A stretch of 64,000 bases of DNA. It comes from Solitalea canadensis DSM 3403 (lineage in GTDB: Bacteria > Bacteroidota > Bacteroidia > Sphingobacteriales > Sphingobacteriaceae). Shown here piece after piece: positions 7,376 through 34,486 of this stretch. Positions within the stretch are counted from its first letter, which is position 1, and each line of letters begins with the position of its first letter. Both the position numbers and the translations under genes were made by a program. Below the pieces are notes generated by a model. The model did no database searches, was not told the origin of the DNA, and was given only the letters and a program-made list of their open reading frames with translations. The DNA lies in the NCBI RefSeq assembly GCF_000242635.2, contig NC_017770.1, positions 62,001 to 126,000 on the forward strand, in the 5' to 3' direction.

Positions 7376-7816
7376 CTATATTTTTAGCTCATTTTGCTTC
7401 AAAAACTGAACATAATTCTGCTCGTTTTCAAAATAGGCAACATCTCCACCTTCATTTAAAAGTACGATGTAAGCTTTCGCTTTATCAACGAGTTTGGTGG
7501 TATGCGGGTCAACCGCTTTTCTTACTGACTCGTCGGTAGGTATACGTTCCTCACATGCTTTGCAACACCCATAGTACGCTAAACCATTAACAATAACTTT
7601 TAATTGTTTCTTTCCCATGTAAGTATTGTTAACCATGCATACTTCATCGTTTGGCACACGGTCACCTTTTTTAAATGACCGGGTAGCTTTTAGTGTTTTA
7701 TGAGTAATGCTGTCTGTATTAACAACGGAATTACTACTTTCTTGATCATTGGTTGCACAGCCTGTAAGAAGTACCGCAGCTATTGCTGCGATACTTAAAT
7801 TCATTGTTAATTTCAT
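7376..7816 (-). CDS. Small TRASH-like cysteine-rich lipoprotein of the efflux operon
   Basis: 146 residues from the ATG at 7816. That start gives a clean lipoprotein signal (lipobox LTGC) and avoids overlapping the adaptor gene; an in-frame ATG at 7855 would overlap it. The mature part holds Cys-X23-Cys-X3-Cys (EVCMVNN then YYGCCKAC), close to the TRASH heavy-metal-binding pattern, and ends with a YF(E/N)-rich segment. The domain suggests metal handling in the periplasm or on the outer membrane. It is the last gene of the operon, 10 bp after the adaptor stop. No exact family is recognised; the metal role is inferred from the cysteines and the neighbours. Confidence 0.75.
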   Translation of the reverse strand: MKLTMNLSIAAIAAVLLTGCATNDQESSNSVVNTDSITHKTLKATRSFKKGDRVPNDEVCMVNNTYMGKKQLKVIVNGLAYYGCCKACEERIPTDESVRKAVDPHTTKLVDKAKAYIVLLNEGGDVAYFENEQNYVQFLKQNELKI

Positions 7817-7826
7817 AACTGATCTA

Positions 7827-8918
7827 TTATTTTTTAATCGATGTACCATCTTCAATTTCTTCAGATCCTTTTACCAGTATCTGTTCTCCTTCCATAAGTT
7901 CGCCGAAAACTTCTACTTTATCCGCCATCATACGCCCCCTGGTAACCGGAACTTTTTTCGTTTTTCCATTTTCGACACGGATAATATACATCCCCATGTT
8001 AGCATCAAGCAATGCAGTTTTTGGGACGAAAAATGTCGGTTCAGTGTTTTTTAATGGAATAGTGGCCTCAGCTACCATTAAAGGTTTTAAGGTGTTATTC
8101 ATGTTGATAAAATCAGCCTCAATTTTTTCTGAACGAAGTTTGCTGTCCAAAGCACCGGTTTTTCGGGTAATTTTGGCCATATACATTTTTTGAGGAATAG
8201 ACCTCACTCTGAATTTAACGGTGTCACCTAAATGGAGGTAAGGTGTATTAGCTTCAGGTACGGATAAACTAAGGCGCAGTTTATTAACATTTTGAATAAC
8301 CAGCAATGGCTTATCGGCACCCTTACCCATCGGACTTACATAAGCACCTAAGTCTACATTTCTATCCGTAATAACTCCACTAAATGGCGCTCTGATAGTC
8401 AGGTAATTTTGGATAGACTGTAACTCCAGGTATACTGATTTTGCTGAAGCTAACTGTGCTTCGTCTGCCAGCTTTTTTGCTGTTATTTGGTCCAAAGCGT
8501 CCTTAGCTACAGCGCCTTCTGTTTCATTGGCTTTAAACATACGGTCATAATTAGATTTGGTAGCCCTGTAGATCGCTTCCTGTGCCATCCACTTCGATTT
8601 TGCACTTGCTAATTGTGATTGAATTTCTGGAGCCTCTAAAACAATCAATACTTGTCCGGCAGTAACCGTACTTCCTATATCGACATTAATCTTTTGGACA
8701 TAGCTGTTAACCTTCGCATATAATTCAGTTTCCTGATCGGCCTCCAACGTGCCCGCCAGCTTTAATTTAACCAGCGGATTATCTTTTTTGAGTTCGATCG
8801 TTTCAAAATTGTTCATCATCGGCTTTGCCTCTTGATTATTTTTTGCCGACGGTTTATCATTACTGCAGGCACTACTAATAAATGTTGCTGCCAGTAGTAC
8901 ATATAATGTTCTATTCAT
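7827..8918 (-). CDS. RND efflux periplasmic adaptor (membrane fusion protein), lipoprotein
   Basis: 363 residues. Lipobox SSAC at about residue 18, then the HlyD/AcrA-type arrangement: barrel-sandwich hybrid halves (about 45-85 with VNSYVQKINVDIGSTVTAG, and about 165-200 with APFSGVITDRNVDLG), a helical hairpin between them (about 90-160), a beta-barrel and a membrane-proximal domain to the end. Such adaptors link the inner-membrane RND pump to the TolC channel. It lies 8 bp downstream of the pump gene and 10 bp upstream of the Cys-rich lipoprotein, in one operon. No obvious Met/His-rich metal-binding tail is present, so the substrate cannot be told from this protein alone. Confidence 0.92.
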   Translation of the reverse strand: MNRTLYVLLAATFISSACSNDKPSAKNNQEAKPMMNNFETIELKKDNPLVKLKLAGTLEADQETELYAKVNSYVQKINVDIGSTVTAGQVLIVLEAPEIQSQLASAKSKWMAQEAIYRATKSNYDRMFKANETEGAVAKDALDQITAKKLADEAQLASAKSVYLELQSIQNYLTIRAPFSGVITDRNVDLGAYVSPMGKGADKPLLVIQNVNKLRLSLSVPEANTPYLHLGDTVKFRVRSIPQKMYMAKITRKTGALDSKLRSEKIEADFINMNNTLKPLMVAEATIPLKNTEPTFFVPKTALLDANMGMYIIRVENGKTKKVPVTRGRMMADKVEVFGELMEGEQILVKGSEEIEDGTSIKK

Positions 8919-8926
8919 GTGTTTGC

Positions 8927-11900
8927 TTAATTAGTGGTTTCGAAATAAATACTGTCTTTGTCTTCAGGGTCTAATGAAGGTGACTGTGTAGTTGTTTTAC
9001 CCTGTATCCATGTAAATACTAGCGGTAGTAAGATTAAAACAGAGAAAGTGGATGCTGTTAATCCTCCAATTACAGCTCGGCCTAAAGGAGAAACCTGATC
9101 GCCACCTTCTCCATGACCAATTGCCATTGGAAGCATACCTGCTACCATTGCGAGCGTGGTCATAATAATCGGGCGTATGCGTAGGGAAACTGCTTGTAGT
9201 GCTGATAAGTTAGCACTGCCGTTTTCAAGCCTTAGTTTTTCTGCATTTGCAATTAATAATACCGCATTTGCAATCGATACCCCTACAGACATAATAATGC
9301 CCATATACGATTGAAGATTTAAAGTCGATCCTGTAATTTTCAGCAGAATCAACGAGCCTAAAACCACAAAAGGAACTGTTGTAAGGATGACTAACGCTAC
9401 CCTGAATGATTGGAAGTTGGCAGTAAGCATCAGGAATATAACCACAACGGCTAGTAATAGGCCATTGGTCAGGCTTTTCATCGTATCATCTAACACGGGC
9501 GACATGCCTGCTACCATGATATTAATCCCCTTTGGCAATTCTCCCAATGAGGCAATTGCTTCTTCAACATCTTTTTTGGCTTGTTCAAGGTCTTTCTTGT
9601 GTACATTGGCCGTAACGGTTGTATAGGCCATGGTTCCCAGGTTGTAACTTTCGCCAAGTGTAGTTGTTGGAGTGATAGTGGCAACATCTCCCAAAACCGG
9701 ACGGTCGGCATTTTTTGCCAGTGGGATATTGGCTAATTCCTCCTTGGTATTCAGGATGTTTTGTGGGGTCTGAATCTGCACGTCGTATGCAATACCCATC
9801 ATTCCTTCTACCCACATATTTTTGCTGGTGTAACGGGAAGATGCCGTAGATGCAATTAAAGACCGTGAAATATCTTGTGCGTCAATCCCTAGTTGAGCCG
9901 CTCTTTCTCTGTCAATAGTAATATTAAGAGCCGGGTAATTAAGCGATTGTGGAATTTGCTGATCGCGTAAGTAATCAATTTCCTTAAGCTTAGCCAAAAG
10001 CTTGTTGGCATACATTACGTTCATTTTTTTCTTCATTCCCGAAAAGCGAACCTCTATCGGCGTGTTGCTCCCCTGGCTTAGAATCTTCTCCGTAAGTTCT
10101 ATTGGTTCAAATGAAAAATGAAGGTCAGGCATTTTGGTTTTCATATGCTGACGAATAATGTCTTTTAGGTCATCAGTATTTCCATCGAAATCTTTCAGTG
10201 CCACTTGCATTAGCGCTTCATGAGGTCCGGCATTGTATAAATAGATGGGACTTACGGCAAATGAAGACGGATGTTGTCCGATAAACACCGAAGAAATGGC
10301 AATATGATCCTTACCGATTACCTGTTCCAACTCCCTTAAAACTTGTTTGATTTTTTCTTCGGTTTTCTCAATGCGTGTTCCTTCCGGCGCTTTAATACGA
10401 ACCTGGAACTGGCTCGAGTTTACATTCGGCAGTACATCTTTTCCGGTAATTGCAAACATATAAGCTAATGCAATTCCGGTCAGCGCAAAACTGGCTATTA
10501 CAATAGGTTTTTTATTCGGTTGTAATCGGCCAATAAATGATCCAAAACGTTTTTTGAATAGATCAAACCTGTCCTCTTTTTCATGCTCATGATGGGGTTG
10601 AATTTTCATCAACCAGTTGGCCATAACAGGAACAAACGTTTGTGACAGTAAGAAAGAGAAGATCATGGCAAATCCAATAGCCAAGGCTAATGGCATAAAT
10701 AATGCTCCGGGAATGCCTGTCATCATAAAGGCCGGAGCAAAAACGGCAAGAATACAGAGCAAGATCAGTAATTTAGGGAATGCTATCTCTTTACAAGCAT
10801 CCCAAATAGCTTTTGCTTTGGATTTGCCCATCGCAAAATGCTGGTGAATATTTTCAATCGTTACCGTACTTTCATCGACCAGAATACCTATAGCCAATGC
10901 TAATCCTGATAACGACATAATGTTGATCGACTGACCGAACAGTTTTAAGAATAATACGCCGGAAATGATGGAAATTGGAATGGTAAGCACAACAATTAAC
11001 GCGGCCCGTCTGTCTTTCAAAAATAACAACACCATCAAGCCTGTTAACAAAGCACCAAATATTCCTTCAATAATGAGGCTCTTTAGTGCATTTATAACAT
11101 AAACAGATTGGTCAAATTCATAAGAAATCGTTACATCATCCGGTAAATTATTCTGAATAGTAGGAATGGCTTTTTTCAGATTTTTAACCACATCCCAGGT
11201 CGATGCATTGCCTGCTTTGGCAATATTGATATAAACTGAACGTTTACCATCTATCAATGCATAACCAGTGGTAATATCGGCTCCGTCTTTTACTGTCGCA
11301 ACATCACGGATGTATATGTTTTCAACGCCGTCTTTGAAAATCGGGATGTTTCCGAAATCATCAACCGCTTTTATCGTGTTGTTGGTTGGTGTGAGGTAAT
11401 TAATATCGCCTATATACACATTACCCGAAGGTGCAGTAATATTGTTTCGGCTAATCGCTTCTACAATCTGATCGGGTGAAAGCTGGTGAGTGCGCAGTTT
11501 ATTCGGATCAATATTAATCTCCACTGTACGCGGACTTCCCCCAAACGGCGGCGCTGTTGTTAATCCCGGAATTGCAATTAAGAATGGACGAGCCGTAAAG
11601 TTGGCAATATCCTGTAGCTGATTATTGGTTTTGGTATTACTTCTGAACACCAATTGGCCAACAGGTTGTGAGGAGGCATCGAACCGGATAATGAATGGAG
11701 GAGGAGCACCCGGAGGTAAGAACACCTGGGAACGATTGGATAACGCACTAGTTTGAGCGATTGCCTGTCCCATTTCGGTTCCTTCATAAAAGTTCACCTT
11801 CATCAAGGTTAGCCCCTGGGTGTTTTTCGTTTCAATGCTTTTGATGCCATTGGTAAAAAGCATCATGTTTACATACATCTTGGTGAAATAACCTTCCATT

Positions 11901-20533: not shown

Positions 20534-22816
20534 ATGAATAAATTTTTGACAGCAATTATTGTTTGTGCAACAGCATTTAGCGTGCAGGCACAGCAAGTTA
20601 AAGATCCGAAAATGGTGTCATTCATCGACAAACTAATGAGTCAGATGACACTAGAGGAGAAAATCGGACAGTTGAACCTGCCGAGTGAAGGAGATATCAT
20701 CACCGGGTTGGCTAAGAACAGTAACATCGCCGAAAAGATCAAAAAAGGTCAGGTGGGCGGAATGTTTAACATCAAAGGAGCCGACAAAATCAGAGAAATT
20801 CAGCGAATTGCGGTGGAGCAAAGCCGCATGAAAATACCAATGTTGTTTGGTATGGATGTGATCCATGGTTACGAAACAGTATTTCCAATTCCTTTAGGCA
20901 TTGCTTGTACCTGGGATATGAATGCAATTGAGGAATCTGCTCGCATAGCGGCATCAGAAGCAAGTGCAGACGGTATCAGCTGGACATTCAGCCCAATGGT
21001 TGATATCGCAAGGGATCCTCGCTGGGGTCGTGTTTCTGAAGGAAGTGGTGAAGATCCGTACTTAGGCGGACAGATTGCCAAAGCGATGGTTCGTGGTTAC
21101 CAGGGAAAAGGCAATTCATTTTCAGCAAATACCAATATTCTTGCCTGTGTAAAACACTTCGCCTTGTACGGTGCAGGTGAGGCAGGAAGAGATTATAATA
21201 CGGTTGATATGAGCCGTATTCGTATGTATAATGAATATTTATATCCTTATCAGGCAGCAGTTGAGGCCGGAGTTGGTAGTTTGATGGCTTCATTTAACGT
21301 GGTTGATAATGTTCCTGCTCATGGTAATAAATGGCTTTTAACAGATGTACTAAGAAAACAGTGGAAGTTTGACGGATTTACAGTAGCCGATTACGGAGGA
21401 GTCAGTGAAATGGTTAATCACGGAGTGGGTGATATGCAGTCCGTTTCTGCTCAGGCGTTGAACGCCGGTTTGGATATGGATATGGTGAGCGAAGGATTCC
21501 TGTCTACCCTGAAAAAATCATTGGAAGAAGGGAAAGTAAGCATCGATCAAATCAATACCGCTTGTCGACGTGTGTTAGAAGCAAAATATAAACTTGGGTT
21601 GTTTGCGAATCCATATAAATATTGTGACCTGTCTCGTGCTAAAAAAGATATTTATACACAAGCTAATAGAGCGGTTGCCCGCAAAACTGCATCTGAGAGT
21701 TTTGTCCTGTTAAAGAACGAAGGAAATCTGTTGCCATTAGCTAAAAAACAAACCATTGCAGTTATTGGTCCGTTAGCAAATACCCGCTCAAACATGGTTG
21801 GAACCTGGAGCGTTGCAGCTAAGCTTGATGTTCCTGCTACAGTTGTGGAAGGTTTAAAATCTGTGGGCGGCAAAGATGCTTCAATTCTGTACGCTAAAGG
21901 TTGTAACCTGACAAGCGATCCGGTATTGGAGGCTAATTCGACATTATTCGGACGTTCACTGAATCGTGATAACAGAACAGAAGAAGAGCTAAGAGAAGAA
22001 GCAATGAAGATCGCAGCGCAGTCTGACGTTATCGTTGCAGCTATGGGCGAGTCTTCAGAAATGAGTGGCGAATCAAGCAGCCGTACAGATATTGGTATTC
22101 CTGATGTACAAAAACGATTATTAAAAGAATTATTGAAAACAGGAAAGCCAGTTGTATTGGTATTGTTTGCCGGTCGTCCAATGACTTTGGTTTGGGAACA
22201 TGAAAATATCCCTGCAATTATCAACGTATGGTTTGGTGGCAGTGAAGCTGCTTATGCTATCGGAGATGTGTTATTTGGAAATGTAAACCCAGGCGGTAAG
22301 CTAGTGTCAACATTCCCTCGTAATGTAGCCCAAATCCCTTTATTCTATAATCATCTGAATACAGGTCGTCCGGCTGCTGATAAAGGTTTTGAAAAATTCA
22401 GAAGTAACTACATGGATGAGAAAAATGCCTCTCTTTATCCTTTTGGTTATGGTTTAAGTTATACTCAGTTTACCTATAGCGATATTAAATTAAGTTCAGC
22501 TACTATGAATGGTACCGGCGAAATCACAGCATCCGTAACAGTTACGAATAGCGGTAAAAGAGACGGAGCCGAGGTAGTTCAGCTTTACATCAGAGATTTG
22601 GTTGGCAGTATTTCAAGACCTGTAAAAGAATTAAAAGGTTTTGAGAAAATTCAACTGAAAGCCGGAGAGTCGAAAACTGTCAGCTTTAAAATCACTCCTG
22701 AATTGTTGAAATTCTATAACTCAGACCTGGAGCATGTTTTTGAACCGGGAGAGTTTGACCTGATGATCGGCGGTAACAGCCAGGATGTTAAAACAACAAA
22801 ATTCACATTGCAATAA
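20534..22816 (+). CDS. bglX: Secreted glycoside hydrolase family 3 (BglX-like beta-glucosidase)
   Basis: 760 residues, the length of BglX. Signal peptide ends VQAQ; the mature start KMVSFIDKLMSQMTLEEKIGQL is typical. The (alpha/beta)8 domain holds RDPRWGR.SEG.GEDPYL and KHF, with D286 in TVADYGG as the expected nucleophile. The (alpha/beta)6 domain at about 390-610 and a C-terminal fibronectin-III-like domain at about 650-755 complete the fold. It removes terminal beta-linked glucose (or xylose) from oligosaccharides in the periplasm; no T9SS sorting domain is present. The second GH3 gene begins 25 bp downstream, so the two are cotranscribed. Confidence 0.93.
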   Translation: MNKFLTAIIVCATAFSVQAQQVKDPKMVSFIDKLMSQMTLEEKIGQLNLPSEGDIITGLAKNSNIAEKIKKGQVGGMFNIKGADKIREIQRIAVEQSRMKIPMLFGMDVIHGYETVFPIPLGIACTWDMNAIEESARIAASEASADGISWTFSPMVDIARDPRWGRVSEGSGEDPYLGGQIAKAMVRGYQGKGNSFSANTNILACVKHFALYGAGEAGRDYNTVDMSRIRMYNEYLYPYQAAVEAGVGSLMASFNVVDNVPAHGNKWLLTDVLRKQWKFDGFTVADYGGVSEMVNHGVGDMQSVSAQALNAGLDMDMVSEGFLSTLKKSLEEGKVSIDQINTACRRVLEAKYKLGLFANPYKYCDLSRAKKDIYTQANRAVARKTASESFVLLKNEGNLLPLAKKQTIAVIGPLANTRSNMVGTWSVAAKLDVPATVVEGLKSVGGKDASILYAKGCNLTSDPVLEANSTLFGRSLNRDNRTEEELREEAMKIAAQSDVIVAAMGESSEMSGESSSRTDIGIPDVQKRLLKELLKTGKPVVLVLFAGRPMTLVWEHENIPAIINVWFGGSEAAYAIGDVLFGNVNPGGKLVSTFPRNVAQIPLFYNHLNTGRPAADKGFEKFRSNYMDEKNASLYPFGYGLSYTQFTYSDIKLSSATMNGTGEITASVTVTNSGKRDGAEVVQLYIRDLVGSISRPVKELKGFEKIQLKAGESKTVSFKITPELLKFYNSDLEHVFEPGEFDLMIGGNSQDVKTTKFTLQ

Positions 22817-22841
22817 GCTATCACTTTAATAAAGATCAATT

Positions 22842-25061
22842 ATGTTTAAAAGTATTCTAAAGGCTGCGGTTATCGTGTTATGCAGTTCGTTTAGTGTATA
22901 CGGACAGGCCCAATTGCCTGTTTACCTTGATGACACGAAGCCTATTAAAGACCGTGTGGAGGATGCCCTTTCACGGATGACATTGGAAGAGAAGATTGGA
23001 ATGGTTCACGCACAGTCCAAATTTAGTTCAGCCGGAGTTCCGCGCTTAGGAATTCCTGATATCTGGATGACCGATGGTCCGCATGGTATTCGTCCGGAAG
23101 TATTATGGGATGAATGGTCCCAGGCCGGTTGGACAAACGATTCTTGTATTGCATTTCCGGCACTAACCTGTTTGGCTGCAACGTGGAATAAAGAAATGTC
23201 ATCGTTGTATGGAAAATCAATAGGAGAAGAAGCCCGTTATCGTAATAAAACCGTTTTATTGGGGCCTGGTGTAAATATTTACCGTACACCATTAAACGGA
23301 AGAAACTTCGAATATATGGGTGAAGATCCGTTTTTGTCGGCTAAAATGGTGGTTCCTTATATCAAAGGCGTTCAGCAAAACGGAGTGGCTACCTGTGTAA
23401 AACACTATGCATTAAATAACCAGGAAACCGAACGTCATTCAATTAATGTAAATGTTGATGATCGTGCATTGTATGAGATCTATCTTCCGGCTTTCAAAGC
23501 TGCTATACAGGAAGGCGATACCTGGGCAATTATGGGTTCTTATAATAAATATAAGGGTCAGCAATGCTGCCATAACCAATATTTGTTAAATGATATTTTG
23601 CGCAAGGAGTGGGGGTTCCAGGGAGTTGTTGTGGCCGACTGGGGTGGCGTGCATGATACGCAACAGGCCATTACCAATGGTTTAGATATGGAATTTGGTA
23701 CCTGGACAGATGGTTTATCATGGGGAACAAGTAATGCCTATGATAATTATTATCTGGCTAAACCATATTTGGCAATGATTAAATCAGGTAAAGTTGGTAC
23801 CAAAGAACTGGATGAGAAAGTGCGTCGCATTTTGCGCTTATCATTCCTTACCAATATGAATAAGAATCGTCCTTTTGGTTCATTCGGAACGGAAGAGCAT
23901 GCATTAGCCGGACGTAAGATTGCGGAAGAAGGTATTGTGCTATTACAGAATAAGAATAATATTCTTCCAATCAATCTGAATAAAACCAAACGCATTGCAG
24001 TAATAGGTGAGAACGCAATTAAAATGATGACTGTTGGAGGTGGTAGTTCTTCATTAAAAGCAAAATATGAAGTGTCTCCGCTTGATGGCTTGAAAAGAAG
24101 AATTGGCTCACAGGCAGAGGTTGTTTACGCACGTGGTTATGTGGGTGATGCTGATGGCAGCTATAATGGTGTTGTGTCAGGCCAAAACCTGAAAGATAAT
24201 CGCTCAGCTGAGGAGTTAATGGCTGAAGCAATTAAAGTTGCTAAAACTGCCGATGTAGTGGTTTTTGTTGGAGGCTTAAATAAAAGTGATTTCCAGGATT
24301 CAGAAGGAAACGACCGTAAAGGTTTGGGCCTTCCTTATAACCAGGATAAACTGATCACTGAATTATTGAAGGCTAATAAAAATCTTGTTTACGTTAACAT
24401 TTCAGGAAATGCAGTGGCAATGCCTTGGGTAAATGAGGTTCCGGGAATTGTACAAGGATGGTTCCTTGGTACTGAAGCCGGCAATGCACTGGCTGCGGTA
24501 TTAGTTGGTGATGTAAACCCTTCAGGTAAATTAACATTTACTTTCCCTGTTAAGTTGAGCGACAATGCTGCTCATGCAATGGGTGACTTCCCTGGTAAAG
24601 ACGGAGAGGTTACTTATAAAGAAGGAATTTTTGTTGGCTACCGCTGGCACGATAAACAGAAGATTAAACCTTTATTCAGCTTTGGTCACGGCTTAAGTTA
24701 TACCACTTTTGAGTACGGAAAAGTAACTGCTGATAAAAAGGAACTCACAGCTGATGATAAAATCACGTTTACTGTAAATGTTAAAAATACGGGTACACGA
24801 GAAGGTTCAGAAGTTGTACAGCTTTACATTAGCGATCTTAAATCGTCATTGCCTCGTCCGGTAAAAGAACTTAAAGGTTTCGAGAAAGTTTCATTAAAAC
24901 CTGGTGAAACCAAAACAGTTACAATTACTGTCGACAAAGCAGCTTTAAGCTTCTTTGATGATAAAAAACATGAATGGGTTGCTGAACCAGGTGATTTTGA
25001 AGCCTTGATCGGCGCTTCATCAGCTAACATTAAAACCAAAACAGCATTCAAACTGAGGTAA
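22842..25061 (+). CDS. Secreted glycoside hydrolase family 3, second copy
   Basis: 739 residues. Signal peptide to about residue 22 (VYGQ), then SRMTLEEKIGMVHAQ, TDGPHGIR and the NFEYMGEDPFL block. The expected nucleophile is D266 in VVADWGG. The second domain and a C-terminal fibronectin-III-like domain with VQLYISD and RPVKELKGFEKV complete it. Sequence wording differs from the first GH3 gene (TDGPHG.R type, as in many beta-glucosidases/xylosidases), so the two probably act on different linkages of one substrate. A short terminator follows 19 bp after the stop. Confidence 0.92.
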   Translation: MFKSILKAAVIVLCSSFSVYGQAQLPVYLDDTKPIKDRVEDALSRMTLEEKIGMVHAQSKFSSAGVPRLGIPDIWMTDGPHGIRPEVLWDEWSQAGWTNDSCIAFPALTCLAATWNKEMSSLYGKSIGEEARYRNKTVLLGPGVNIYRTPLNGRNFEYMGEDPFLSAKMVVPYIKGVQQNGVATCVKHYALNNQETERHSINVNVDDRALYEIYLPAFKAAIQEGDTWAIMGSYNKYKGQQCCHNQYLLNDILRKEWGFQGVVVADWGGVHDTQQAITNGLDMEFGTWTDGLSWGTSNAYDNYYLAKPYLAMIKSGKVGTKELDEKVRRILRLSFLTNMNKNRPFGSFGTEEHALAGRKIAEEGIVLLQNKNNILPINLNKTKRIAVIGENAIKMMTVGGGSSSLKAKYEVSPLDGLKRRIGSQAEVVYARGYVGDADGSYNGVVSGQNLKDNRSAEELMAEAIKVAKTADVVVFVGGLNKSDFQDSEGNDRKGLGLPYNQDKLITELLKANKNLVYVNISGNAVAMPWVNEVPGIVQGWFLGTEAGNALAAVLVGDVNPSGKLTFTFPVKLSDNAAHAMGDFPGKDGEVTYKEGIFVGYRWHDKQKIKPLFSFGHGLSYTTFEYGKVTADKKELTADDKITFTVNVKNTGTREGSEVVQLYISDLKSSLPRPVKELKGFEKVSLKPGETKTVTITVDKAALSFFDDKKHEWVAEPGDFEALIGASSANIKTKTAFKLR

Positions 25062-27058: not shown

Positions 27059-27697
27059 ATGAAAAAAACTATACTGCTTTTACTATTCATAGGTACTTTA
27101 CTTAGTGTTAAAGCACAATCTGTTACTGTACGGTTTAGTACTAATATGGGTAATATAGATGTGATGCTTTATGACGAAACCCCCAAACACAGAGATATGT
27201 TTGTGAAGGCAGTTAAAAAGGGTTGGTATAAAAATGCTCAGTTTAATCGGGTGATAGCAAACTTTGTGAGCCAGGGAGGCGAACTTGACGACACTATTCT
27301 AAACAGGGAAAAACAGCATCCAGAGCTCGGCGTAAAACGATTCCCTGCTGAAATAAAAGCCTCATTATTCCATAAAAAGGGAGCTTTGGGAGCAGGTAGA
27401 GATGATAATCATGAAAAAGCGTCTTATTTTACCCAGATTTATTTTGTAGCAGGCAAAAAGAGAAGTGATGAAGAATTGGATGCGATTGAGAAAAAACGAA
27501 ACAGAAAAATTCCTGCAGATCAACGTGAAGTTTACAAAACTATAGGAGGCACCCCGCACCTCGATGGTGATTACACCGTTTTCGGCGAAATTGTTAGTGG
27601 ACTTGAAGTTGCTGATGCCATAAATGCTGTGCCGACTGATAAAAATGATGTACCCTTAAAATCAGTCGTTTTTAATTTAAGTATCATCCGAAAATAA
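27059..27697 (+). CDS. Secreted cyclophilin-type peptidyl-prolyl isomerase
   Basis: 212 residues from the ATG at 27059, which gives a normal signal peptide (to VKAQ); an upstream in-frame TTG at 27008 would add an odd leader. The cyclophilin core is seen in MGNIDVMLYDETPKHRDMF, FNRVIANFVSQGGE and YTVFGEIVSGLEVADAI. The region before the last block carries a charged insertion of about 25 residues. It would speed proline isomerisation during folding of exported proteins in the periplasm. The stop lies 2 bp from the stop of the convergent Lrp gene, with no terminator between. Confidence 0.88.
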   Translation: MKKTILLLLFIGTLLSVKAQSVTVRFSTNMGNIDVMLYDETPKHRDMFVKAVKKGWYKNAQFNRVIANFVSQGGELDDTILNREKQHPELGVKRFPAEIKASLFHKKGALGAGRDDNHEKASYFTQIYFVAGKKRSDEELDAIEKKRNRKIPADQREVYKTIGGTPHLDGDYTVFGEIVSGLEVADAINAVPTDKNDVPLKSVVFNLSIIRK

Positions 27698-29013: not shown

Positions 29014-32000
29014 ATGAAAAATGCAACAAGGCTTGCTCTTTTCGGGTTTGGTTTATGCCTGAGTGTTTTTAGCGGAGAATCCGCTTACGGGCAAAAAAAG
29101 CCGTTAAAGAGTCCACAAACCGACAGTGAGTTGCTGCAGCTGGCTGATCGGATGGTCACAACCACTATCAAAAAAAAATCAAATGCAGCCGGAGATGAAT
29201 TTTTACAGCGTGATTTAACCGGTTATCTTAAAAAAACAGTTTTTGCTCAAAAAGGGGATGTAAAAACCGGTGCCGATTACGGTCACGATCACAAAGAAGA
29301 ACTTCTGGAAGAGTACCTCAACCGTCCTCAACCTTCGGTAAAAACAATGACGAAGTATTTTAAGGATGCTGCCAAAGAGTTTAATGTACCGCAAGAATTA
29401 TTGATGGCCATTGGACAGGTACAAAGTAACTGGGCGCAAATCAGTGAATCAATGTATGGTTCATGGGGCGTAATGGGTTTGGTAGAGAATCAATTTACCA
29501 AACAAATAACGGAAGCTTCAGCTATTTTAAAAGTTACTCCTCAGCAAATTAAAGACGATGCTAAAACCAACATCCGCGCTGCGGCAGCGTTGTTGGCGAG
29601 TTACCAGAAAAAAGAGGCAGTAACCATTGAAGATTGGTTTGAGCCAACCAAAGAGCTCACTGGTTTGCAAAATCCTGTTTATAAAGAGAAGCTTGCACTT
29701 CGTTTCTTCGATTTAATGTCGACAGGATCAAAGTCGGTTACCTTGTGGTCCGAAATTGTTGATGTTCCTTCGGTAAAGGTTAACATGAAACAATTGAAAG
29801 GAGTGGAGCAAGAATTTCCAAAGCAAAAAGGAAGTGATGATAGTTATGTAAGTGCCAAACGTATATATACCACAATGGCCGCAGCTGCTGCTCCTCCAAC
29901 CGATTATGCACAGGCTGTATCCGATTTTACCACCTGTAATTATAACAGTCGTAACGGAGCTCCTATCGAATATTATTTCGTTCATTATGTGGCTACAGGA
30001 ACTTATGAAGGTGCAATTGATTGGTTTAAAAACTGTTCTTCGCAAGTTAGTGCCCATTATGTGATCCGAAATTCGGACGGTGAAGTAACGCAGGTAGTGG
30101 CCGAAGCTAATCGCTCATGGTCACAAGGTGTTGGTTATTATAACGACAGAGGTATCGGTACGGAGCATGAAGTATTGGCGACCAATCTGGCTATGTGGTA
30201 CAGCGATCCAATGCTAACCGCTGCCGGACAATTGGCTAATGATGTTTGTACACGCAGAAATATTCCTAAGGTTAGGGCTGTAGCGGCTCCGGGTATCAAT
30301 GGGCATAATGATGTTAAATCTACATCATGCCCAAATATGACAGCCGAAGTATGGAACCTGTTTTTGAACAAGGTTAGCCTTGCCGCCGGCGGAACCAATC
30401 CGGCACGACCAACCCTGTATACATTGACTAATCCGGGAACCGGTTCTGGTGTAAAAGCAACCTGGAAAGCCAATACAGAAAGTAACCTTGTTGGATATCG
30501 TTTGTACTATGCTACTGACGATGCATTGACAACCTGGGCGCTTGCTGCAGATGAGAATACATTAGGCGCAGCCGCTACACAGGTTACCCTGAATAGTTCA
30601 ACAGATTTTATTGTTCCACCGACTGGGAACGTTTACCACTTTAAATTAGTTGCAGTGGGAACCGATGCTCAGTCACAAAAAATTGAAAGTCTTGAAAGTG
30701 ACATTTACTCCAGATCATCAGCTATTACCGGCCCGTCAGTTTTAATCGTTGACGGTTTCGACAGAACTAACGGTTCCTATACTTCTGCTGCCCATTCTTT
30801 TGCAACGGGTTATTTTAAAGCGTTGAGAGATTCCCGTCAGTTAAAGATTAATACCGTTGCAAATGAAAAAGTGGAAGACGGTACTGTACTGCTATCGGAT
30901 TATCAATTAGTAGTTTGGTTTGTAGGAGATGAATCAACCGTTAACGAAACATTTTCAACAACAGAACAAACCAAAGTGCAAACCTATTTAACCAATGGAG
31001 GAAAGCTGATTGTAAGTGGTTCTGAAATTGCCTGGGATTTGGATTCCAATGGTTCAACTGCCGATAAAGCATTTATCAATAATTACCTGAAAGCAAAATA
31101 TGTGGGTGACGGGGCTTCGAACTATACACCGGCTACAGGAGTGAGTGGTACTGCTTTCGCCGGATTATCCATTCCATTTGGTATTACTTACCCTGAAGAT
31201 TTTCCTGATAATATTTCTACTAACGGAGGTTCTGCTTACGTATTGAACTATGCCGTAGCAAGCACTAGAGGTGGAGTAGCTTATAAAGGAACTTTCGGAG
31301 CTGGCACATTGCAAGGAGGTGTGGTATGTGTTACCTTCCCATTAGAAACCGCATCACAAGCAAATCAAACAAGTTTTGCAGATAAAGCGTTAACTTATTT
31401 TGGTATTGGGGCAACTGCTCCTGTGGCTGTTAACGATGCCGGACAAAGCAGTAAAAATACGGCTCTTGTCGTAGATGTATTGGTTAATGATCAGAGCAAT
31501 GGAAATGCATTTGACCTTGCTTCAGTTACTGTAGTTACAGCTCCGGCTCATGGTACTGCCACCGTGAATAATTCAACCGGTAAAATAACGTATACACCTG
31601 CAACCGATTATTTAGGCAGCGATTCATTCGTTTACAATGTAAAAGATGTATTAGGCGTAAGCTCAAATAACGCAACCACAAGTATTGCTGTTGTTGAACC
31701 TACTTTGTGCAGCAATAGTGGTCCGGAGGTTAACAGCTCTTACCCTAAGCGTGATCTACGTGGCTGTTGGATTTCAACTGTGTCAAATATCGATTGGCCT
31801 TCTTCGCCAACAGCGGCTCCAGCTGTACAACAGCAAGAGTTGAAAGTAATGTTAGATTCATTGGCTTCGGCAGGAGTTAATACGGTATTCTTTCAAATCA
31901 GACCTGAAAGTGATGCGTTGTATGCTTCTACAATTGAACCTTGGAGTTATTACTTAACAGGTCAACAAGGTTTAGCTCCTTCGCCAATGTGGGATCCGTT

Positions 32001-34413
32001 GAGTTTTATTATTAATGAAGCTCATGCCAGAGGTCTTGAACTGCATGCATGGATAAATCCATACCGCGCAAAACAGGGCACACCAACTTTAGCTTCAACA
32101 CATGTGGCATCAGTGCATCCGGAATGGACATTTGTAGCCGAATCAAAAACATTCTTGAATCCGGGTATTCCGCAAGTGCGTGATTATTTGCTGAGTGTTA
32201 TCACCGATATCGTAACGCGTTATAATATTGATGGTATCCATTTCGATGATTATTTCTACCCTTATTCGGGTATGACTAATCAGGATGCCACAACTTATTC
32301 TACTTATAATCCTACCAGCTTAAGTCTGGCTGATTGGAGACGTGATAATGTGAATAAGATGGTAGCTATGGTGTATGATAAGATTCAGGAAGTAAACGCT
32401 CAGCAAAATAAAAATATCCGCTTCGGTATTAGTCCGTTCGGAATCTGGAAAAGCGGTGTGCCTTCAGGAATCACCGGATTGTCATCTTACAATGATATTT
32501 ACTGTGACCCGATTGCATGGTTACAGGCAGGTAAGGTAGATTATCTTGCCCCTCAGTTATATTGGGGCTTTGGAGGCGGACAAGATTACTCGGCTTTAGT
32601 AGCATGGTGGGATGATCAGGCCGCACTTTACGGTCGTCACCTGTATCCGGGCTTGGCGCTTTACAGGTTAACTGATTCTAACTGGCCGGCAAGTACGATA
32701 CAAAGCCAGGTAAATGAAAACCGTATCAGTAATAACATGGCTGCTCTTGGCCAGATTTTCTTTACGGCTAATGACCTTATTGGAAATGATAAGAGCATTA
32801 AAACATTATTAAAGCAAAATCAATATAAATACAAATCGATCCCACCGTCTATGAGCTGGAAAGATGGTGTTTGTCCATCAAACCCTTCTAACCTTCATTA
32901 TCAAAATAATAAGCTGATCTGGAATAAAGCGTTAGCAGCAAGTGATGGCGATAAACCCACTAAATATGTGATCTATCGTTTTGGCAGTACAGGCGAAATA
33001 ACTACGAATGCACAAGACGGAACTAAAATCGTAGGAGTAACAGCCGACACGGCCTTTACTGTAACAGCCGGTATGTTAAGCGGCGTAGAAAACTACTTTG
33101 TGGTTAGTTCTATCGATAAAAATAACAATGAAAGTGTATTCAGCTCGCCTGTAAATGTTACCGGAACGCTGGCGTATTGTAACTCGAAAGGGCTTAACAG
33201 TACCTATGAGTGGATTTCAAAAGTAACTATTGGAGCATTTGTTCATTCAAGCGGAAACGATGCCGGTTATGGTGATTTTACCACACAACAAATAAACCTT
33301 GCTAAAGGAAGTACCTATAGCATTAGTTTACAGCCTGCTTATTCATCGACCATTTACAATGAATATTGGAAAATTTGGATCGATTTCAATAAAGATGGTG
33401 ATTTTCTGGATGCAGGTGAGTTAGTGTTTAACCCGGGTGGCGTTAATAAAAATACGGTTACCGGTTCTATTACTATTCCGGCTTCTGCGTTGGATGGTAA
33501 AACCAGAATGAGGGTTTCAATGAATGGTACTTCTGCTGATTATACCACAGAGCCTTGTACCAACTTTGCTTATGGAGAGGTTCAGGATTATACCATCAAT
33601 TTAACACCGGAAGGTTCATGTGTTGCTCCGTCAATAACTGAGAAAATTATTGATGATGCAACTGCCACCTTCACGGGAACTTGGAGTACAGGAACCAGTG
33701 CTGGTTATTATGGAACGGGTTATAAACATGATAGTGGCACCGGACAAGGAACGAAAACGGCTAAGTTTACGCCTACAGTACAAGAAACAGGTTCTTACGA
33801 AGTTTATACGTATTACGTGGCTGGAACAAACCGCGCTACTAATGTTCCTATCGATATTAATCATTTGCAAGGAACAACAACTGTAACCTTAAATCAGCAG
33901 GTAAATGGTAGTACATGGGTTTCATTAGGTACGTTTGATTTTGATGCAAGTGCTAATAGTAACGTAGTGATCAAGAATAACGGAACTAATGGAGTGGTGA
34001 TAGCTGATGCCTTCCGTTGGGTTTATAAAGGTTGTCCGGCTGGTGCTCAACCACTGGCAATGATGGTGCAGCCTGAAGAATTGAAAGTGGTGGAAAGCAG
34101 TGGATTTACCAGCACTACTCAAAATGAAACCGTTAGAGAAGTTGCTCTGGAAGAGTTTGTGAACAGTGTGATTGCTTATCCGAACCCATTCTCGTATGAG
34201 TTAAATCTTGAAATTGTGTCTGATCAGAAAGGGGTGATTGAGTTATCTGTTATCAATGCAAATGGTAAACGAGTAGCTCAATTGAACAAAGATGTAGAAG
34301 TTGGTAAAACCGGACTCATTTTAAATGGAGCACAGTGGGATAAAGGTCTTTATTTCATTTTAGTACACATGCCAAATGGAAAAACCATTCAGGCTAATGT
34401 GATTAAGGAATAA
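29014..34413 (+). CDS. T9SS-secreted multidomain peptidoglycan hydrolase (LT-like + amidase + GHL10)
   Basis: 1799 residues. Order: signal peptide (1-26, AYGQ); lytic-transglycosylase-like helices (about 110-215, FNVPQELLMAIGQVQS); Amidase_2/PGRP-type N-acetylmuramoyl-L-alanine amidase (about 300-455) with zinc ligands H324, H431 and C439 in the same spacing as T7 lysozyme (H and C eight apart); fibronectin-like domain (about 463-566); glutamine-amidotransferase-like domain (573-799); Big_9/cadherin-like domain (802-894); GHL10/DUF187 glycosidase (about 908-1285, DLRGCWISTV and DGIHFDDYFYPY); fibronectin-like domain; GEVED domain (about 1403-1529); golvesin-C-like domain (about 1538-1674); type-A T9SS sorting domain (1719-1799, YPNPFS). 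The GHL10 family includes DigH of E. coli, which cuts peptide-free glycan. The protein is probably exported to cut peptidoglycan outside the cell. Confidence 0.88.
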   Translation: MKNATRLALFGFGLCLSVFSGESAYGQKKPLKSPQTDSELLQLADRMVTTTIKKKSNAAGDEFLQRDLTGYLKKTVFAQKGDVKTGADYGHDHKEELLEEYLNRPQPSVKTMTKYFKDAAKEFNVPQELLMAIGQVQSNWAQISESMYGSWGVMGLVENQFTKQITEASAILKVTPQQIKDDAKTNIRAAAALLASYQKKEAVTIEDWFEPTKELTGLQNPVYKEKLALRFFDLMSTGSKSVTLWSEIVDVPSVKVNMKQLKGVEQEFPKQKGSDDSYVSAKRIYTTMAAAAAPPTDYAQAVSDFTTCNYNSRNGAPIEYYFVHYVATGTYEGAIDWFKNCSSQVSAHYVIRNSDGEVTQVVAEANRSWSQGVGYYNDRGIGTEHEVLATNLAMWYSDPMLTAAGQLANDVCTRRNIPKVRAVAAPGINGHNDVKSTSCPNMTAEVWNLFLNKVSLAAGGTNPARPTLYTLTNPGTGSGVKATWKANTESNLVGYRLYYATDDALTTWALAADENTLGAAATQVTLNSSTDFIVPPTGNVYHFKLVAVGTDAQSQKIESLESDIYSRSSAITGPSVLIVDGFDRTNGSYTSAAHSFATGYFKALRDSRQLKINTVANEKVEDGTVLLSDYQLVVWFVGDESTVNETFSTTEQTKVQTYLTNGGKLIVSGSEIAWDLDSNGSTADKAFINNYLKAKYVGDGASNYTPATGVSGTAFAGLSIPFGITYPEDFPDNISTNGGSAYVLNYAVASTRGGVAYKGTFGAGTLQGGVVCVTFPLETASQANQTSFADKALTYFGIGATAPVAVNDAGQSSKNTALVVDVLVNDQSNGNAFDLASVTVVTAPAHGTATVNNSTGKITYTPATDYLGSDSFVYNVKDVLGVSSNNATTSIAVVEPTLCSNSGPEVNSSYPKRDLRGCWISTVSNIDWPSSPTAAPAVQQQELKVMLDSLASAGVNTVFFQIRPESDALYASTIEPWSYYLTGQQGLAPSPMWDPLSFIINEAHARGLELHAWINPYRAKQGTPTLASTHVASVHPEWTFVAESKTFLNPGIPQVRDYLLSVITDIVTRYNIDGIHFDDYFYPYSGMTNQDATTYSTYNPTSLSLADWRRDNVNKMVAMVYDKIQEVNAQQNKNIRFGISPFGIWKSGVPSGITGLSSYNDIYCDPIAWLQAGKVDYLAPQLYWGFGGGQDYSALVAWWDDQAALYGRHLYPGLALYRLTDSNWPASTIQSQVNENRISNNMAALGQIFFTANDLIGNDKSIKTLLKQNQYKYKSIPPSMSWKDGVCPSNPSNLHYQNNKLIWNKALAASDGDKPTKYVIYRFGSTGEITTNAQDGTKIVGVTADTAFTVTAGMLSGVENYFVVSSIDKNNNESVFSSPVNVTGTLAYCNSKGLNSTYEWISKVTIGAFVHSSGNDAGYGDFTTQQINLAKGSTYSISLQPAYSSTIYNEYWKIWIDFNKDGDFLDAGELVFNPGGVNKNTVTGSITIPASALDGKTRMRVSMNGTSADYTTEPCTNFAYGEVQDYTINLTPEGSCVAPSITEKIIDDATATFTGTWSTGTSAGYYGTGYKHDSGTGQGTKTAKFTPTVQETGSYEVYTYYVAGTNRATNVPIDINHLQGTTTVTLNQQVNGSTWVSLGTFDFDASANSNVVIKNNGTNGVVIADAFRWVYKGCPAGAQPLAMMVQPEELKVVESSGFTSTTQNETVREVALEEFVNSVIAYPNPFSYELNLEIVSDQKGVIELSVINANGKRVAQLNKDVEVGKTGLILNGAQWDKGLYFILVHMPNGKTIQANVIKE

Positions 34414-34459
34414 TAAGAGGGGACATTTTTACCAAGAAAACTTGATGGGGAGTTTTTAG

Positions 34460-34486
34460 GCGCCGGTAAATTACCGGCGCTTTTTA
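34460..34486 (+). terminator. Strong terminator after the peptidoglycan hydrolase
   Basis: A 10-bp perfect inverted repeat (GCGCCGGTAA and complement, one central base) followed by TTTTT, 46 bp after the stop. Confidence 0.88.

Follow-up and report, generated by a model that had tools for sequence, protein, structure and literature searches.

A rare fusion of an amidase and a GHL10 domain in one predicted exported protein of Solitalea canadensis

Stepwise dismantling of peptidoglycan by a single secreted chain is known from Staphylococcus aureus Atl, in which GlcA acts on naked glycan only, after AmiA has stripped the peptides; its authors note that a single protein carries both enzymes, arranged in the correct order for catalysis (PMC7679415). 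Within the GHL10 family, C. difficile Cwp19 is reported to yield peptide-bearing anhydro-muropeptides (PMC6016235), and the paper on its structure, where the list of pocket residues derives from docking and comparison, not mutation, leaves the precise substrates open (PMC5765458). DigH (YddW) is described as denuded-glycan-specific (PMC12288456), and another GHL10 protein, DogH, has reported activity on starch (PMC9967864). The GHL10 family name by itself leaves the substrate unfixed.

The gene described here belongs to Solitalea canadensis DSM 3403 and lies in a stretch of 64,000 nucleotides of NC_017770.1 (the window, whose positions are used throughout unless a locus label is given). Positions 29014-34413 on the plus strand form one frame from an ATG start, 1799 aa long with zero internal stops, as expected of the single polypeptide that an earlier sequence-only reading had seen in it. 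That reading also thought the stepwise logic within one chain unusual, a view that Atl contradicts: there, as here, an amidase is followed by a glycan-cutting domain in one secreted chain (PMC7679415). The window protein departs from Atl in its T9SS tail, its Gram-negative host and the lysozyme-like (SLT-like) domain in front, which lacks a key Glu. Its glycan cutter is also a GHL10 domain and not a member of the family of GlcA (GH73). DigH shares the GHL10 fold family with the window protein and differs in its long loop, in the lipobox-like LLCSC of its leader and in standing alone, whereas Cwp19 has a DP.GSDT loop in the alignment, CWB2 anchors (PMC6016235) and no amidase. No description of an amidase-GHL10 fusion or its kin was found in the literature covered, from which subscription journals are mostly absent.

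The reading that we favour, at about even confidence, is that of an exported two-module enzyme digesting non-self peptidoglycan, amidase first and GHL10 second. The protein would be exported by the T9SS and would digest foreign peptidoglycan, be it from dead neighbours, prey or shed wall. Amidase_2 would cut the MurNAc-L-Ala bond and GHL10 would then cut the glycan strand, while the N-terminal lysozyme-like domain, itself presumably non-cutting, most likely holds that strand; Golvesin_C and the Ig/FN3-like units would serve as spacers and as anchors on carbohydrate.

Domain layout, export and gene neighbourhood

The features assigned to the gene are listed with their basis in brackets.

29014..34413, plus strand: whole gene, predicted bifunctional exported wall hydrolase (ORF and domain calls)
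29014..29094, plus strand: apparent signal peptide, about aa 1-27, without a lipobox Cys (sequence inspected by eye)
29311..29763, plus strand: lysozyme-like (SLT) domain, about aa 100-250, predicted non-catalytic (PF01464 and Gln137)
29956..30336, plus strand: Amidase_2, aa 315-441, with ligands H324, H431 and C439 and conserved E384 (Pfam, alignment)
30391..30708, plus strand: FN3-like stretch, about aa 460-565 (similarity to L123 and L147-L152)
30706..31407, plus strand: Rossmann/GATase-like accessory stretch, about aa 565-798, name tentative (similarity to L123 and L147-L152)
31417..31665, plus strand: Big_9 Ig-like linker, aa 802-884, where the two halves join (Pfam)
31756..32838, plus strand: GHL10 TIM-barrel domain, about aa 915-1275 (Pfam, alignments, tree)
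32881..33183, plus strand: second FN3-like linker, about aa 1290-1390 (named by eye, without a Pfam match)
33364..33600, plus strand: GEVED domain, aa 1451-1529 (Pfam)
33655..34017, plus strand: Golvesin_C, aa 1548-1668, perhaps carbohydrate-binding (Pfam; match to a Paenibacillus xanthan lyase)
34177..34395, plus strand: T9SS type-A sorting tail, aa 1722-1794 (PF18962, TIGR04183)
34458..34482, plus strand: terminator-like hairpin, 45 bases 3' of the stop (11 pairs, 7 of them G-C)

Domain matches were judged significant by their E-values. On the whole protein, Pfam places GHL10 (PF02638) at residues 915-1221 with 211.2 bits against a cut-off of 27.9, and Amidase_2 (PF01510) at 315-441 with 83.9 against 26. 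The SLT match (PF01464, 115-200) is marginal at 22.4 bits against 21.3 and rises to 26.5 when the first 250 residues are scanned alone. Pfam gives no Glucosaminidase match on the whole protein, only GHL10, SLT and a sub-threshold GHL6 over GHL10; on the first 250 residues alone Glucosaminidase reaches 13.1 against a cut-off of 30.2 (E 0.16).

The accessory stretches are known mainly by their similarities. The first FN3-like stretch is 44-54% identical, and the Rossmann-like stretch 48-52%, to the corresponding parts of L123 and of L147-L152 (the proteins of a genus here called g13). Pfam finds no fn3 match anywhere in the window protein, and a sub-cut-off one in one L123 protein; for the Rossmann-like stretch all Pfam matches are sub-threshold (DUF4960 and ABC_transp_aux, with ThuA in L123). 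Structure models of the FN3-Rossmann part alone (pLDDT 34.5) and of the amidase-bearing N-terminal part with six relatives (pLDDT 37.1) were too poor for use. The second FN3-like linker is 40-43% identical to six Flavobacterium GHL10 proteins. The FN3-Rossmann unit also occurs elsewhere: L123:5868-10539 (minus strand) encodes two adjoining T9SS proteins in another family that carry it, one of them an Amidase_3 enzyme, and L154-L161 hold frames of about 700 aa with a Rossmann-like unit, of which seven of the eight were scanned; in these Pfam names nothing but a T9SS tail, apart from one weak fn3 match and one weak CHU_C match in single frames. The hairpin behind the gene is a consensus match, of which the region has 9 against 7.1 expected.

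Golvesin_C resembles the end of the Paenibacillus xanthan lyase 6f2p, and this match could mean that GHL10 and Golvesin_C act on exopolysaccharide, the protein stripping capsule or slime plus the wall beneath. The starch activity reported for DogH (PMC9967864) and the substrates left open in the Cwp19 structure paper (PMC5765458) agree with such a role. Against it, peptidoglycan is the substrate of both Cwp19 and DigH, and the enzyme fused to GHL10 or encoded next to it is predicted to be a peptidoglycan amidase; moreover, the GHL10 and amidase proteins of one Flavobacterium locus (L065) both carry Golvesin_C, so that the module gives no indication of a substrate peculiar to GHL10. We regard the exopolysaccharide role as doubtful and continue to favour digestion of peptidoglycan.

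The export claim of the sequence-only reading is supported. The type-A sorting domain of the protein exceeds the cut-offs of both Por_Secre_tail (PF18962, 1722-1794, 29.1 bits against 27) and TIGR04183 (29.1 against 23), and the host genome encodes SprA, a T9SS part (2540.7 bits against 200). Tail and SprA together support T9SS export as predicted for the window protein. Type-A tails match nine times in the genome at E <= 0.001, eight of the matches being over the cut-off, this gene's included; nine in 5.2 Mb is perhaps a small cargo set.

Cargo of the T9SS ends beyond the outer membrane, and because it leaves across that membrane, foreign or shed peptidoglycan is favoured over the cell's own septum. 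The division-site role entertained earlier is less likely for the same reason. More broadly, the protein might serve its own cell in division, wall turnover or gliding, a thought encouraged by DigH, which is described as conditionally required for E. coli daughter-cell separation (PMC12288456). This genome, however, keeps a separate GHL10 at 4.73 Mb with a DigH-like loop, and the N-terminal half with the SLT-like and amidase domains (the LT-amidase half) is absent at E <= 1e-10 from all three congeners sampled, which speaks against a core function. An own-cell role thus appears very improbable beside the favoured action on non-self wall. The same genome holds, at 3.20 Mb, two further divergent GHL10 genes about 2 kb apart (L134:4573-5769, plus strand, and 7616-8947, minus strand).

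The next gene downstream encodes a rhomboid protein in the opposite orientation; also encoded nearby are two GH3 enzymes, a DUF1349 protein, an acyltransferase, an AsnC-type regulator, an AI-2E-type transporter and an efflux set. There is no hint of a wall-enzyme operon among ten neighbour proteins, and zero PADLOC matches that would link the locus to a defence system. The two GH3 glycosidases are consecutive and lie upstream at 20534-25061. The nearest plus-strand copy of TAnnTTTG, the Bacteroidota promoter motif, is at 27196-27203, 1.8 kb upstream of the gene; with 50 copies, the window has fewer than its shuffled versions (mean 83.5), a count that is uninformative here.

The GHL10 domain and the LT-amidase half

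The presence of a GHL10 domain in the chain is well founded. Sequence comparison turned up a single relative of solved structure, C. difficile Cwp19 (5oq2, E 1.9e-83), and of 13 Cwp19 residues mapped by hand on the alignment, namely 12 named active-site residues plus the buried Asp195 (PMC5765458), 12 are identical: W919, Q961, W1013, R1018, D1078, D1079, Y1080, S1140, Q1181, Y1183, G1213 and F1250. The sole difference is S368 of Cwp19, which is T1251 in the window protein.

The earlier assignment of the domain to the DigH kind holds as to family, PF02638, and is otherwise weakened. A DP.GSDT loop, which is a marker of the DigH type chosen here and not a published definition, is present in DigH, in Cwp19 and in the genome's own stand-alone GHL10, and absent from the window protein and its nearest relatives; the loop has 14 residues in the window and 18 in DigH. 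The window domain is no closer to DigH (43.6% identity over 303 residues) than is the stand-alone GHL10 at 4.73 Mb (43.7% over 318), and these two are 44.8% identical to each other. In a GHL10 tree of 77 rows, two of them the identical DigH protein, loop length sorts the sequences into 42 with the short and 35 with the long loop, and the labels need 4 changes, so that they are clustered and not a clean clade marker. The window domain and six Flavobacterium GHL10 domains form one clade in this tree (support 100/99); the tree also has three long branches, all of which lie outside that clade.

Denuded-glycan specificity for the window GHL10 is a guess, because the loop is absent and Cwp19 cuts peptide-bearing peptidoglycan. 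Both domains might instead cut peptidoglycan independently: GHL10 would act like Cwp19, a lytic transglycosylase whose strands still bear peptides, and all that the fusion adds would be a shared export signal and a higher local concentration. The products of Cwp19, the only solved relative, are reported to carry peptides (PMC6016235), as this alternative would have it; the loop common to Cwp19 and DigH is nevertheless absent from the window domain, which makes the transfer of activity from either uncertain.

The LT-amidase half was compared across 34 proteins: the window protein, 12 close relatives (6 from Flavobacterium, 6 from genus g13) and 21 more distant proteins taken from the class search. 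All 34 have H324, H431 and E384. C439 occurs in 13, namely the window protein and each of its 12 close relatives, and is replaced by other residues in the remaining 21. H324, H431 and C439 we take, from the amidase family, to be zinc-binding ligands. With the Pfam match over its cut-off and all three residues kept in the window protein and its close relatives, the earlier call of a zinc amidase can be upheld.

The lytic-transglycosylase-like region had been put forward as a third activity, and here the residues point the other way. Gln137 aligns with the Glu of the RQES motif of E. coli Slt, which we take to be catalytic, and Gln is found in 12/12 close relatives as well; because Gln replaces this Glu, the SLT-like domain is predicted to be non-catalytic. 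Its retention across the clade without the Glu suggests glycan binding. The same column in the 21 distant proteins has Gln in 8, Asn in 9, Lys in 2, Met in 1, Ala in 1 and Glu in 0. Pfam at E <= 1 recognises SLT in 13/34 N-terminal stretches, a number equal to the window protein plus the 12 close relatives, and at E <= 0.01 in none of four distant proteins scanned whole; since it does so in 13/34 stretches only, no SLT domain is claimed for the distant proteins. The distant amidases that lack Glu in this column, a less certain set, are L066-L080, L082-L084 and L138-L140.

Relatives and construction of the fused gene

Relatives of the fusion were sought in the window's phylum and in plasmid and phage records, and all genome counts take in the window's own genome. 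Among the listed matches of a full-length query against 395 phylum genomes (at most 2 candidates scored per genome), no fused gene besides the window's own appears. Of 100 relative genomes (at most 4 candidates scored in each), 63 contain a match to the full-length protein at 1e-30, and the listed matches except the own gene start at residue 868 or later, in GHL10 or the C-terminal part. The sequence-only reading had advised looking for the domain pair in other genomes; in Flavobacterium the two enzymes were found as neighbouring genes.

Among 301 family genomes the LT-amidase half is found at 1e-10 in 7, the window's and six of genus g13. Of 295 class genomes, 89 yield a match to the LT-amidase query at 1e-15, in many cases confined to the amidase part, and a near-full match at >50% identity occurs in just the window and one Flavobacterium; the GHL10 profile has no match in 34 amidase loci from the class list (best matches, longest frames favoured). 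The six g13 frames (L147-L152) are 980-983 codons long, match the window protein over its first 800 residues in the order LT, amidase, FN3-like, Rossmann-like, and differ from it in having no GHL10 half; over the LT-amidase part, the two rows computed give 53.2% and 50.8% identity. The one g13 protein scanned by Pfam (L147) has a T9SS tail after a spacer of about 110 aa. There is no GHL10 gene beside the g13 LT-amidase within the 10 to 18 kb fetched in the six genomes, all of which carry GHL10 genes elsewhere.

A contig scan of named genomes, with two peptide patterns that would miss the g13 type, gave six loci (L117-L122), all from Flavobacterium and so closely related to one another that they amount to about one lineage. 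In 6/6 a GHL10 gene lies directly upstream of an LT-amidase gene on the same strand, the latter running past the contig end in L118. Both enzymes of the window are thus present (GHL10 58-59% and LT-amidase part 57-59% identical), in two proteins instead of one, with the GHL10 gene first and with the amidase lacking the FN3-Rossmann unit. In L065, from the same record as L119 and the only locus so measured, 129 bases separate the two genes, start codon to stop codon; both proteins have a T9SS tail and Golvesin_C, as in the window, and both carry PKD domains, which distinguishes them from it.

Across 199 genomes of the Flavobacterium genus, LT-amidase is found in 2 at 1e-30, and 9 have a GHL10 that reaches at least 61% identity to the Flavobacterium query, after which the best match drops to 40%. 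All nine of these GHL10 proteins are short-loop. Two have LT-amidase next door, one is cut by the contig end, one is a full-length form without LT-amidase beside it and five are shorter forms without it; among these five, one locus is ended by the contig 0.4 kb downstream and one is stop-interrupted. The interrupted short-loop gene, L179:6238-8076 (plus strand), has a TAG stop.

The GHL10-LT-amidase partnership is real and optional, and neither half needs the other, since the g13 LT-amidase and most GHL10 genes of the clade stand unpartnered. These single-gene relatives, which show each half without a linked partner, favour independent cutting, against which the Flavobacterium adjacency suggests some functional coupling. 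Weighing these points with the Cwp19 products and the missing loop, we regard independent cutting as rather unlikely and keep to the ordered action of the amidase and then GHL10. The mostly unpartnered GHL10 clade also counts against this favoured reading, as does the reported action of DogH on starch (PMC9967864).

The seam of the fusion can be followed in the relatives. Up to about residue 798 the window chain matches the g13 protein, which then has its own spacer and tail; the window protein there enters Big_9, and from about residue 899 it matches the Flavobacterium GHL10 protein. The Flavobacterium similarity begins just past the apparent signal peptides of those proteins, with CSNSGPE in the window and three of the six, and CSNSGAE in the other three. 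Because the GHL10 part starts after the partner's signal peptide, the fused protein has kept one signal peptide and one tail. In a tree of 34 rows, the LT-amidase half of the window protein falls into one clade (100/100) with those of the six Flavobacterium and the six g13 proteins, within which the Flavobacterium and g13 proteins group without the window (98/97), so that the fusion does not descend in a simple way from either of these living relatives. The window gene thus joins an LT-amidase half of this kind to a GHL10 protein without the signal peptide of the latter; the order of events is an interpretation.

Other origins fit less well. Stop loss in a Flavobacterium-type pair is contradicted by the reversed gene order there and by the missing FN3-Rossmann unit of that amidase. 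Read-through or misassembly is unlikely given one continuous frame, one C-terminal secretion tail and a GHL10 similarity that starts after the signal peptide. As to a phage source, the best 20 of 70 records match only in the amidase part, over 36% of the query, and none of the phage records covers 80% of the LT-amidase query; plasmid-borne GHL10 relatives (154 records) are all below 60% identity. The fusion is genuine and rare, while two-step cutting by one chain is already known from Atl.

Implications for the coupling of wall hydrolases

Ordered digestion of non-self peptidoglycan is favoured because Cwp19 (PMC6016235) and DigH (PMC12288456) are both reported to act on peptidoglycan, because GHL10 and LT-amidase adjoin on the same strand in 6/6 Flavobacterium loci, and because Atl likewise has its amidase before its glycosidase (PMC7679415). 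The two relatives and the fusion form a natural experiment in hydrolase coupling, with one enzyme in g13, adjacent genes in Flavobacterium and one chain in the window. The GHL10 branch concerned differs by its loop from both enzymes with measured peptidoglycan activity.

The by-product of most interest is the SLT domain retained without its catalytic Glu in an amidase clade. In its boldest form, the window protein may be a Gram-negative, independently evolved, Atl-like extracellular machine, in which the Glu-less SLT domain holds the strand, the amidase strips it and the short-loop GHL10 cuts the stripped glycan. We think this unlikely. If it is true, the chain would grip glycan strands while it breaks down the walls of other bacteria, and the Glu-less SLT domain, which is kept across the whole of this amidase clade, might extend to a much wider set of the amidases of the class.
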